This document shows, in pieces, positions 2,555-6,100 of a stretch of DNA of 6,100 nt (its first letter is position 1; each line of letters starts with the position of its first letter). The notes under the pieces are model-generated. The model searched no databases, was not told the origin of the DNA, and saw only the letters and a list, made by a program, of their open reading frames with translations. The DNA is from Clostridiales bacterium (GTDB lineage Bacteria > Bacillota > Clostridia > Oscillospirales > Oscillospiraceae), in the NCBI GenBank assembly GCA_902363045.1, contig CABIYX010000061.1, positions 1 through 6,100 on the forward strand. Reading direction: 5' to 3'. The position numbers were made by a program, and so were the translations under genes.

Positions 2555-2609
2555 CCCTGCCGGGGGCTAAAAGAAGCAGCCTCACAACTGTCTCCAAGAA
2601 TTTCTGTTG

Positions 2610-3551
2610 TCACTCTACTTCTTCTGGTGCAAGAGGATAGCCACACAATTCATCTTCCTGTGCAGAAACCTCTGCGTCCTCTGTTTTTACAAGGCCGCTT
2701 TCTTCAAGCAAATCTGGCGGCACAGCACTTACAGCTAACTGTTGTTCTTCCGGCAAGCTATTATACCAATCCAGCCATTCAAGCGTTTCTTTGGAAAGGC
2801 CCTCCGCATCTACCATCCGATCACCATATCGGACTTGATTTCCGGCTCCTTCTCTTTGCTCAAAAACGATCCATTTCTCGTTCATAAAAATCTCTATGGT
2901 ATTGTCGGCCCCGTATTGATATTCAAATCCTGTTCCAAAATTAGATTGGTTATCCTTTGTCGGTATCTCAGAGCCATCAACCGATGAAGTGATTTCCCCG
3001 TCCATTACCCCGCAACGGCCACTTATGGTACTTTCTTTCCCCGTATCATAGTAGAGTTTGCCATCCACCATTACCATAGGGATTTTATCCCATTCTTGCG
3101 TTTCTTCCTGTCCCGGCAGTTCATTCTCACTTACAGGAACAATCTCATATTGGTAGTTGTCCCAATAAGATTCAATATCAGCTGCTGTAAAATAATCCAG
3201 TTTCTCCTCTGGAAGTTTCAGTCTGCCTGACTTTACTGCTTCTGCACAGTAGATAATCTCATAACTTGTATCATTTGAGAGATTAAACCGAAAACTTGTT
3301 ACTGTCCCTCCAGCAACAGGCTCCGTTTTTTTATCGCTTACCTCCAATCCCGAAAACAGAAAATAAATATCCTCTATATCATCGGTTTTTGTAATGACTT
3401 GCTTTTCAGCGGAGTTTGGCACAACATTGCGATACATCTCGATATTATTCACATCAGCAACATCAAAAGGCATTGAAATAGTTTCCTTTTTTTCGCAACC
3501 AGTGAATACCAAAACCATAGCCGCCACCAAAACAAGAGCAATCTTTTTCAC
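2610..3551 (-). CDS. Secreted lipoprotein of unknown function (cargo gene)
   Basis: This 313-aa protein starts with GTG at 3551, with AAGGCGG nine bases upstream. Residues 1-18 form a lipoprotein signal peptide (KK, hydrophobic core, FTGC) with the lipid-bearing Cys at 19, so it should be anchored on the outer face of the cell membrane. Three parts are visible: an N-terminal domain (about 22-135), a middle domain (about 154-232, WDKIPMVMVDGKLYYDTG to NEKWIVFE), and a short helical C-terminal piece (about 250-285, ETLEWLDWYNSLPEEQQ). I recall the middle and C-terminal parts from clostridial lipoproteins and from the sensor regions of BlaR1/M56-like proteins, but cannot verify this. No catalytic motif is visible. 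The base composition is clearly lower in GC than its neighbours (19 of 60 G+C at 3241-3300, against 40 of 60 at 1201-1260 in mob), which suggests separate acquisition. There is no transposase or IS end beside it. Confidence 0.85.
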   Translation of the reverse strand: MKKIALVLVAAMVLVFTGCEKKETISMPFDVADVNNIEMYRNVVPNSAEKQVITKTDDIEDIYFLFSGLEVSDKKTEPVAGGTVTSFRFNLSNDTSYEIIYCAEAVKSGRLKLPEEKLDYFTAADIESYWDNYQYEIVPVSENELPGQEETQEWDKIPMVMVDGKLYYDTGKESTISGRCGVMDGEITSSVDGSEIPTKDNQSNFGTGFEYQYGADNTIEIFMNEKWIVFEQREGAGNQVRYGDRMVDAEGLSKETLEWLDWYNSLPEEQQLAVSAVPPDLLEESGLVKTEDAEVSAQEDELCGYPLAPEEVE

Positions 3552-3606
3552 TGTATCACACCGCCTTTCTTAACTTGTAGTGACGAAAAAAATATCCTTT
3601 TGTTTC

Positions 3607-4140
3607 CTATCTGCCACCAAAAATTTTTGAAAACCAGCTTTTTTTCTGTTCCGGTTCCTGCTGATCCGTTCCAGCCTCCCCGGTAATAAGCTGCTGCTGG
3701 ATTGTCCCCGCGTGTAGGGCCTGGGCCGCTGCCGCTGTCTGCTGGGCGGCGGCCAGCGCGTCAGTAAGCCGGGTAATGGTCTGGGCCTGCTGCTCGATCT
3801 GCCGGTCTTTCACTTCAAGCTGCCCCTGCAGCGTGTCGATGGTGGCCTGTAAAACAGAAATCACACCATCAACCTCTGCTGTTTTTTCTGCATTTTTGGT
3901 TGACGGCGCGTCAACCAAACCGTCAACCGCGCCCGTCAACTGGTTGTCGGTGGTTGACGGTGCAATTTCAGAAAACGCCTGTTTTATCAGCTTTTCGCCG
4001 TCAACCTCTACCATCAACCTACCGTCAACCGTTGCCGTCAACCCCTGTAAACTGGTTGACAGTGGTTCACGCTTAATTTTTTTGAAAACAGCTTGCTTTG
4101 ATACCCCTATCTCGTCAGCTATCTGCCGGATCGTTTTCAT
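3607..4140 (-). CDS. RepB/DUF536-like plasmid replication-associated protein with N-terminal HTH
   Basis: This 177-aa protein has an N-terminal helix-turn-helix (residues 5-24, RQIADEIGVSKQAVFKKIKR), followed by STSLQGL...VEVDGEKLIKQAF, the typical layout of RepB/DUF536 accessory proteins of Gram-positive theta plasmids. A Thr/Val/Asp-rich linker spans about 35-92. A coiled coil (about 93-148) carries LQATIDTLQGQLEVKDRQI and ends in LHAGTI, and the C-terminal tail is KKSWFSKIFGG. The likely role is DNA binding in replication control or partition. The ATG at 4140 overlaps the stop of the upstream gene (ATGA), implying translational coupling. A GTG 27 bp upstream is possible but unnecessary. 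The linker-coding DNA holds twelve copies of a 9-bp motif, described separately. A 55-bp gap with no clear terminator separates it from the lipoprotein. Confidence 0.8.
   Translation of the reverse strand: MKTIRQIADEIGVSKQAVFKKIKREPLSTSLQGLTATVDGRLMVEVDGEKLIKQAFSEIAPSTTDNQLTGAVDGLVDAPSTKNAEKTAEVDGVISVLQATIDTLQGQLEVKDRQIEQQAQTITRLTDALAAAQQTAAAAQALHAGTIQQQLITGEAGTDQQEPEQKKSWFSKIFGGR
3866..4062. repeat. Intragenic iteron-like array: twelve copies of CCGTCAACC / GGTTGACGG
   Basis: Copies start at 3866, 3898, 3908, 3920, 3933, 3942, 3952, 3998, 4011, 4022, 4035 and 4054. Those at 3898, 3920, 3952, 3998, 4022 and 4035 are exact on one strand or the other; the rest differ at one base. Those at 3898, 3942, 3952 and 4054 read GGTTG... 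on the plus strand and the others read the reverse. Most neighbours are 9-13 bp apart, about one helical turn, in two clusters (3898-3960 and 3998-4062). The copies at 3898 and 3908 form a palindrome, GGTTGAC-GGCGC-GTCAACC. In the protein they encode VDG, LT/LM or PST/LST according to frame, so the shared sequence exists only at the DNA level. It is probably a binding array for the HTH protein encoded by the same gene, or for Rep. Confidence 0.8.
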
Positions 4141-4385
4141 ACCTTTACGAACAGGCCCACAGGACACACGCCCTTAAACCCCGGCGTAGATATGTACCAG
4201 CAGCCGGGGCCTGTCGGCTCCCACGCTACTTCCAGGGTAATCTCGTGCCACCCATCAGGGAACAGGGCCGTAAAACCCTGCCCTGCGTGTATGCCGCGAC
4301 CTTCCAGGAGCAGCCGAGGGTGCGGATCATCGTCTGCCGGATCGGGAAGCTGTATCTGCGCGATCCTCTCTTTATCCCAGCTCAT
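4137..4385 (-). CDS. Small DUF5348-like plasmid protein, function unknown
   Basis: This 82-aa protein starts with ATG at 4385, behind a strong AAGGAGG nine bases upstream. The first 25 residues are charged and Pro/Asp-rich. Residues 26-82 look like one small beta-rich domain: LLLEGRGIHAGQGF, then DGWHEITLEVAWE, WYIS, and a hydrophobic end GLFVKV. That pattern (G-x-H-x-G, then D-G-W, then WY, then GL-V) resembles DUF5348 proteins of Firmicutes plasmids and integrative elements; the match is from memory. It lies 18 bp after the toxin gene, and its stop codon overlaps the start of the RepB-like gene, so the three should share one transcript. No catalytic residues are evident. Confidence 0.7.
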   Translation of the reverse strand: MSWDKERIAQIQLPDPADDDPHPRLLLEGRGIHAGQGFTALFPDGWHEITLEVAWEPTGPGCWYISTPGFKGVCPVGLFVKV

Positions 4386-5195: not shown

Positions 5196-6100
5196 TTATT
5201 CCTGGCCCCCATCGTGCAGCGCATCCAGGAGCCAATCGCTCAACTCCTGGGAAGGGGACACCCGCACCGTTATATGCCCATTTTCAAAGCGCACCGCTGG
5301 CGGCGGACAATCCCACCACTTGCGGACGGTTTTCGGATCAAGGCCAGTTTCCCGGTGACAGTCGGCCTTGCGCCCCTCCGGGTGCTGCTGCCGCCATTCA
5401 TAAACCCGCGCCTGGGCCGTTCCGCTGCCTTTAGGCCGCCCGTTCCCTTCTCTCCAATTCGTACCATTAGCCTTATCGTTAATCTCCTGGATTGCTCTCG
5501 CGCCCTGCAAATGTACTGGCTGTTTGCGCCAGTTCCGCTTGTTGACAGGCATAGTCAGACCGGAGAGCTTCGCTATATCGTCCCTGGGGAATGTCACATA
5601 GTCCTCGTTGAACATCTCCAGGGCGCACACCACATCATCTTTCGTGAAGCGGTTTATATCCTCCACGCTCATATCATCGTAAGGCCGGAGCAGCGCGAAA
5701 GCGTCCCGGCGCAGCTCGTCCTCGTCTATCCCGCATTTTTTCGCATAAATCGCCAGCGTCATAATGCCATAGAAACGATGGCCCACCCGGATTTCATCGG
5801 CGATCCGGTGCAGCCACCAGTCGTAAAGGTCACGCTTGACCGTCCAGCGGCCCCGCCGCTCCTTCTTGACGATCCGCCGCTCATACCAATCCGGGTACTT
5901 CTCTTTCGCCTCGGCCAGCGACAGGCGGCTCTTTCTCATAAGCCCTTCAAGCCGCTGCTGCTCCCCGTTGCTGTCCGGGATATAATCAAGCAGCCGCACC
6001 AGCTCCACCGGCCCGCCGAGCCGGAACGCCCTCACAGGGTACTCACGCCCCAGCTTCGAGCCGGAGCCGACCACCCGAAATCCCTGCAAAATCCCCTGCA
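5196..6100 (-). CDS. rep: Plasmid replication protein, C-terminal part with HTH domain
   Basis: This is the continuation of the gene that starts at 715; bases 6008-6100 duplicate 1-93. It supplies residues 239-508 and stops with TAA at 5196-5198. Taken alone it could be read as a 297-aa protein from a TTG at 6089, but that codon is Leu212 of the full protein and not a start. Residues about 260-385 are helical, rich in Trp, Arg and Asp, and probably form a primase C-terminal or helical domain. A GRPKGSG linker (428-434) leads to a helix-turn-helix at about 436-471, including KADCHRETGLDPKTVRKWW, which is well suited to binding origin repeats. I saw no Walker A motif, so helicase activity would come from the host. 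A rho-independent terminator lies about 90 bp downstream. Confidence 0.8.
   Translation of the reverse strand, partial: QGILQGFRVVGSGSKLGREYPVRAFRLGGPVELVRLLDYIPDSNGEQQRLEGLMRKSRLSLAEAKEKYPDWYERRIVKKERRGRWTVKRDLYDWWLHRIADEIRVGHRFYGIMTLAIYAKKCGIDEDELRRDAFALLRPYDDMSVEDINRFTKDDVVCALEMFNEDYVTFPRDDIAKLSGLTMPVNKRNWRKQPVHLQGARAIQEINDKANGTNWREGNGRPKGSGTAQARVYEWRQQHPEGRKADCHRETGLDPKTVRKWWDCPPPAVRFENGHITVRVSPSQELSDWLLDALHDGGQE
6008..6100. repeat. Terminal direct repeat, right copy (circular-contig overlap)
   Basis: This is an exact duplicate of bases 1-93. The offset between copies (6,007) is the inferred plasmid length. It encodes part of the replication protein on the minus strand, around its conserved GFRVVGSGSK stretch. 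Confidence 0.93.

Follow-up and report, generated by a model that had tools for sequence, protein, structure and literature searches.

The 6,100-nucleotide stretch of Clostridiales DNA analysed here (the window) covers an entire circular plasmid of 6,007 base pairs (bp), its ends (1-93 and 6008-6100) being identical over a 93-base terminal overlap. Our subject is one of its genes, which encodes a 177-residue winged helix-turn-helix (HTH) protein resembling Par of the staphylococcal plasmid pSK1, and the dense array of a 9-bp motif, CCGTCAACC, that lies inside this Par-like gene. The array is conserved beyond what the amino acids demand, relatives with a different class of recognition helix carry a different repeat, and helix, wing, linker and array differ between relatives as one piece. 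We consider it probable that the middle 240 bp of the gene combine the coding sequence of the winged helix with the putative binding array of that very domain, that is, with a predicted plasmid centromere for one-protein partition.

Allowing at most one mismatch, CCGTCAACC has 14 matches in the window where 1.25 are expected (0/200 shuffles reach 14), and all except two isolated ones, at 510 and 2974, fall within 3866-4062. This motif scan agrees with an earlier, sequence-only reading of the same DNA, which had described twelve copies (six exact, six with one mismatch) in 197 bp, in both orientations and all three codon registers, mostly 9-13 bp apart; the scan counts 8 and 4 copies on the two strands, 3, 4 and 5 in the three registers, and 8 of 11 neighbour distances within 9-13 bp. 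The copies form two blocks (Table 1), the first in the codons of the wing and of the helix that follows the recognition helix, the second in those of the linker and the start of the coiled coil, and the gap without sites between them falls on the codons of most of helix 46-58. The same reading held that protein repetition cannot explain the array, which stands only in part. Five of the 12 copies share one phase, encoding VDG/VDA, and roughly two fifths of the copies are expected from amino acids and codon usage alone; when the gene is recoded synonymously, with the protein preserved and the gene's own codons reused, 5.2 copies remain on average and 11 at most, so that none of 5,000 recodings reaches 12. 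This excess is best explained by selection on the DNA, as that reading had proposed, and codon conservation inside the motifs supports the proposal. Where the window and nine relatives encode the same amino acid, the codon is identical in 182/210 cases with the third base in a motif, compared with 243/381 outside the motif in the same half of the gene and 279/465 in the C-terminal half. For the relative L010 and seven others of its class (class B, below), codon identity is 183/189 in the motif, 356/422 outside it in the same half and 250/358 in the C-terminal half. The comparison of homologues suggested at the time has been made, and in L007 and L031 the 9-mers are kept while the linker residues drift. 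In a repeat scan of the whole plasmid, the strongest cluster lies in the Par-like gene (z 14.6), the best scan window not touching the gene scoring 3.9. Chromosomal 9-mers as nucleoid anchors were considered and rejected: the assembly holds 27 exact copies, 6 of them in the array, versus 19 for a reversed control pattern, and same-strand pairs within 30 bp (of exact sites, not degenerate ones) occur in the array only.

Relatives were gathered from one scan of genome contigs (57 loci), and from plasmid records and genome searches with an expectation value (E) up to 0.001, the latter giving matches, some weak or partial, in 6/391 genomes of the class (with a single sequence), 20/394 of the order and 11/398 of the phylum (both with a profile). 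A homologue search counted 3,935 in all, 120 of which were listed. They sort by recognition helix into four classes, each with its own repeat: (i) class A, KQAVFKKIKRE with GGTTGACGG, to which some looser relatives are also assigned, (ii) class B, KTAVxKQIxNL with GTTTGCGAT, (iii) class C, KQAVYKRxKGK with TCCGTATGC and (iv) class D, EQAVRAWxRRN with GTTGCGAAA. The motif of a gene's own class outnumbers each of the four others compared in 55 of the 57 full-length clostridial genes (not de-replicated, and equal in number to the scanned loci by chance), and none of the 57 has more than two copies of a foreign A-D motif. This count and the covariation analysis leave out fragments (L008, L030, L036, L037, L039 and L054-L057), all Lactobacillales and staphylococcal genes, L059, L093 and L104; a first class-by-motif matrix covered 41 chosen genes, without L024, L032, L044 and L063, the best-9-mer recoding test 28 chosen genes, and the spacing counts 24. 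The arrays sit at about the same position within the gene, and neighbours are 9-13 bp apart in 49/74 cases in class A, 39/60 in class B and 12/25 in class C (seven genes each), and in 6/15 in class D (three genes). Among the 37 unique genes of a set of 57, similarity of the repeats tracks that of residues 4-26 (r 0.74, partial 0.72, 0/2,000 permutations) and not that of the coiled coil (partial -0.002, 958/2,000 permutations), a covariation that proves nothing alone because helix and array adjoin, the weight resting on an unchanged backbone and a separate array for each class.

That backbone is seen in six class-B plasmids (L010, L011, L013, L016, L017 and L023, with five distinct par genes, those of L016 and L017 being identical), which align by blastn to the window in long pieces at 92.7-96.6% identity. 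In 6/6, homology ends at 4096 and restarts at 3855; for the class-A plasmid L004 it is continuous across the interval. The six share with the window a Rep that is 93-100% identical, a Mob that is 97-98% identical where present (the L016 contig is without the mob region), an 82-residue open reading frame (ORF) at 95-98% and RelB at 98-100%. In class B the lipoprotein region (about 2579-3655) is divergent or absent, but the same holds for the class-A plasmid L004, and the region therefore does not follow class. Base identity between L003 (class A) and L010 (class B) is 92% over codons 1-16, 43-55% over codons 17-92 and 86% after. Since Rep, Mob and the antitoxin RelB are nearly unchanged while the repeat differs, they are unlikely to be its readers; the comparison of sequences points to the Par-like gene's own product as the probable reader, its specificity changing with the repeat. 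The exact last 82 residues of the window protein recur in 43 of 181 listed database proteins, 36 of them class A, three with a class-B helix (including the hybrid P0137), two with a class-C helix and two with other or truncated starts.

The architecture of the protein resembles that of a partition protein of the pSK1 type (single-protein partition; PDB 8csh), to which the window protein is linked by profile and fold matches: an N-terminal winged HTH that is MerR-like and related to pSK1 Par, followed by a predicted central coiled coil. Because of this resemblance, a partition (centromere-like) site is the best supported of the three options that the sequence-only reading had left side by side (the others being a second origin element and an autoregulatory site). 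RocS of Streptococcus pneumoniae likewise combines a winged HTH and a coiled coil, with a MinD-like amphipathic tail that anchors DNA to the membrane and that the tail of the window protein resembles, but it is chromosomal and the available part of the report mentions no intragenic array (PMC11500499). By extension from pSK1 Par and RocS, (i) the winged helices would bind the array sites, many of which are spaced by roughly one turn of DNA, (ii) the coiled coil would link the bound winged helices into a nucleoprotein complex and (iii) the C-terminal amphipathic tail would tether this complex, probably to the membrane, so that plasmid copies would be kept apart or carried to both daughters. A swap of the 240-bp piece would then change the specificity of the protein and its sites in one step, creating a new compatibility type. 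We incline, on balance, to the wider view that a single 240-bp piece both encodes a DNA-binding domain and contains the centromere to which that domain binds, that segregation identity can be changed by one recombination between conserved flanks, that wing and linker residues are constrained to what their own sites can spell and that no fewer than four self-matching pieces of this kind are in circulation, three on related backbones of gut plasmids.

Table 1. Coordinates of the features discussed, in the numbering of the window
Feature	Position	Strand	Basis
Exchanged piece, codons 16-95: recognition helix, wing, linker and whole array	3856..4095		blastn against six class-B plasmids
Array block 1, five CCGTCAACC-like sites (3998, 4011, 4022, 4035, 4054)	3998..4062		Motif scan
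Array block 2, seven sites (3866, 3898, 3908, 3920, 3933, 3942, 3952)	3866..3960		Motif scan
Par-like gene, 177 residues: winged helix, linker, coiled coil, basic-aromatic tail	3607..4140	-	ORF and start codon, AlphaFold2 model, PDB profile/fold matches to pSK1 Par
Winged HTH, residues 1-58	3967..4140	-	AlphaFold2 predicted local distance difference test (pLDDT) 78-89 over blocks of residues 1-60
Linker, residues 60-86, predicted disordered	3883..3963	-	AlphaFold2 pLDDT below 50
Long helix / coiled coil, residues 82-156	3673..3897	-	AlphaFold2 pLDDT 79-91 over residues 91-140, lower at ends
Tail KKSWFSKIFGGR, MinD/RocS-like amphipathic by resemblance	3610..3645	-	Tails of 18 listed genes and the RocS paper; function inferred
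82-residue ORF upstream of Par-like gene	4137..4385	-	ORF list; overlaps start of Par-like gene by 4 bases

Several observations weigh against the proposed centromere or narrow the ground on which it stands, besides the adjacency of helix and array already mentioned. As for the arrays, the own-class motif is absent from two of the 57 genes (L044 and L063) and L104 has no array. In the best-9-mer recoding test, L015, L020, L032 and L044 fall short of the best recoding and L026 ties; when the core GTTGAY is counted, L026 (p 0/2,000) and L032 (p 0.0095) are above recodings, and L029 has zero copies. Class C genes have just 3-5 sites, in one phase in the five genes tested. Lactobacillales RepX genes carry 4-7 GTTGAY per gene, a weak signal (p 0.04-0.31 in 8 genes). 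In two further genes recoded for their best 9-mer, L078 exceeds all 60 recodings and L077 only ties, and L070 and L072 share a TAGTAAC-like core (for GTTAC, p is about 0.03). The repeat scan finds no array inside the staphylococcal Par genes. As for the protein, the Foldseek E of the window protein for Par is only 0.023, it has no match to DUF536 (PF04394) at E up to 0.1, a family that L073, a staphylococcal relative, reaches at 2.7e-12 (L016, at 0.02, and L040, at 0.01, are both short of the cut-off), and the membrane-type tail is suggested by resemblance, KKSWFSKIFGGR having been set beside KKGFWSRFFGN of L073 by eye. As for exchange, one assembly lists both L018 and L025, which are class-B plasmids, P0137 (one contig of 1,878 bp) combines the helix of class B with a class-A linker, and Rep is more distant in other class-B members (35-36% for L038, 77% for L067, 88% over a part for L060) and in class-D plasmids (35-44%), so that the backbone argument rests on six plasmids.

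Three other explanations have to be weighed. The first is an autoregulatory roadblock, in which the protein would bind its own coding sequence and stop its transcription without any role in partition. The sites do lie inside the gene, downstream of its start, the overlap of the 82-residue ORF with that start makes control from within the gene plausible, and autorepression is usual for partition proteins; yet two blocks with twelve sites, spread over 197 bp, look like more than repression would require, and the closest structural relative is a centromere binder. We regard this explanation as unlikely on its own, autoregulation and partition being compatible with each other.

The second, which we find quite unlikely, is that the array is a replication element, its repeats being iterons read by Rep or by the HTH protein, which would then serve in replication, a role ascribed to DUF536 proteins of lactic acid bacteria. 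Annotations of relatives read RepB-like or RepX, a DUF536 protein, RepB' of pRC18, is called a replicase in the part of the report available (PMC7117683), and RepC of repABC plasmids binds the origin oriV within its own coding sequence, according to the accessible text (PMC2783167), a target that is a replication origin, unlike the putative centromere of the window. Rep as reader, and with it the second origin element of the sequence-only reading, is disfavoured by the six class-B plasmids, which carry a wholly different repeat although their Rep is 93-100% identical. The window plasmid also has a separate 508-residue Rep-type gene with 44-bp repeats beside it. Its product, called Rep-type from size and place, has no Pfam match at E up to 0.05, whether to RepA_N initiators or to any other family, which leaves the comparison of the array with origins inside RepA_N genes as an analogy only. 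The third explanation, that the repeats follow from VDG/PST-type linker peptides multiplied by duplication and are functionless as DNA, can point to the five VDG/VDA copies in one phase, to the 5.2 of 12 copies that recoding retains and to a duplicated linker stretch in the database protein P0001, but it is very improbable given three phases and both strands, the 0/5,000 recodings, codons conserved inside the motifs and different repeats at the same place in different classes; pure protein repetition is rejected on recoding and codon conservation.

The putative centromere differs in place from that of pSK1, which reportedly lies upstream of par. In the window, the 82-residue ORF overlaps the start of the Par-like gene, so that there is no upstream intergenic space; this ORF holds zero copies of CCGTCAACC, and the array lies inside the gene. 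The staphylococcal relatives L073 and L074 do have upstream space, with modest repeat clusters there (z 3.4 and 4.9) and others inside rep. In L073 and L074 (501-875), the cluster within rep is made of GAGTCCCAA, as expected for an origin inside rep. For Borrelia burgdorferi ParZ, a protein that binds a centromere, binding inside its own gene has been reported (PMC9712426); ParZ works with ParA, which was not found on the window plasmid (no ParA ATPase or ParB match in Pfam or NCBIfam among 8 window ORFs or ORF pieces), and the available part of that report describes no repeat array or exchanged piece. Similarly, parS sites lie inside coding sequences of repABC replicons, but those described in the accessible text are separate sites, not a dense array changing together with a binding domain (PMC9040568). 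The literature searched, mostly outside subscription titles and the pSK1 par papers, yields no report of a dense array of self-matching sites in a Par-like gene, nor of an exchange of such an array together with the binding domain. Binding of a protein within its own gene was already known; what is new is the sorting of relatives by recognition helix, each class with its own repeat, and the finding that helix, wing, linker and array differ as a unit.

If our interpretation is true, protein and target are the same bases, hardly separable by recombination, which would account for the ability of small plasmids to switch partition specificity with no mismatched intermediate. The interpretation would also (i) provide natural matched pairs of domain and site (A to C on related backbones, D more distant) from which the recognition code of Par-like winged helices could be learned, (ii) make the question of one-protein, ATPase-free partition testable in a 6-kilobase plasmid of gut Clostridia and (iii) mean that partition genes may go unnoticed behind labels such as 'RepB-like' and 'hypothetical'. 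For the window protein itself, the NCBIfam match is to rep_pAB02_ORF2 (NF038291), at 33.2 bits (E 6.3e-8) and under the curated score of 85 bits.

Several assemblies hold more than one family member: A and D (G000, the assembly of the window), A, C and D (L002, L022, L043), A and C (L001, L021) and two of B with one of D (L018, L025, L053). These are too few for a compatibility rule, which was abandoned. The second member in G000 (L059, on contig C63) is of class D, as a check confirmed. The type-strain assemblies L001 and L002 (genera Angelakisella and Negativibacillus) list the same plasmid as the window, all seven query pieces being 100% identical, which reflects either transfer or cross-contamination. 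A class-B member, L065, is on a mobilizable plasmid of Blautia hydrogenotrophica with an annotated erm(B) gene downstream. A search of viral contigs gave 48 pattern matches, with zero relatives among them.

Natural length variants of the window protein, P0001, P0076 and P0092, have gained 18 or lost 8 residues in the wing/linker, P0001 being 18 residues longer through its duplicated linker stretch, and the number of array copies probably varies among them. Class-B genes also carry 2-5 copies of an AT-rich 9-mer, AAATCGAAA. Nine copies of it (raw DNA) are found in the more distant relative L093 (1298-1953), whose frame is broken in that assembly; a class E based on this 9-mer was not used, L080, with the same best 9-mer, failing to beat recoding.

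Apart from the Par-like gene and the Rep-type gene, the plasmid encodes a MobV-type relaxase, a RelB/YafQ toxin-antitoxin pair and a lipoprotein-like ORF. The two 44-bp direct repeats, between mob and rep (964-1007 and 1041-1084), are kept in several class-B plasmids and may belong to the replication origin or the rep leader. An inverted repeat able to form a hairpin (2495-2554) lies directly upstream of mob, and relatives match it in both orientations.
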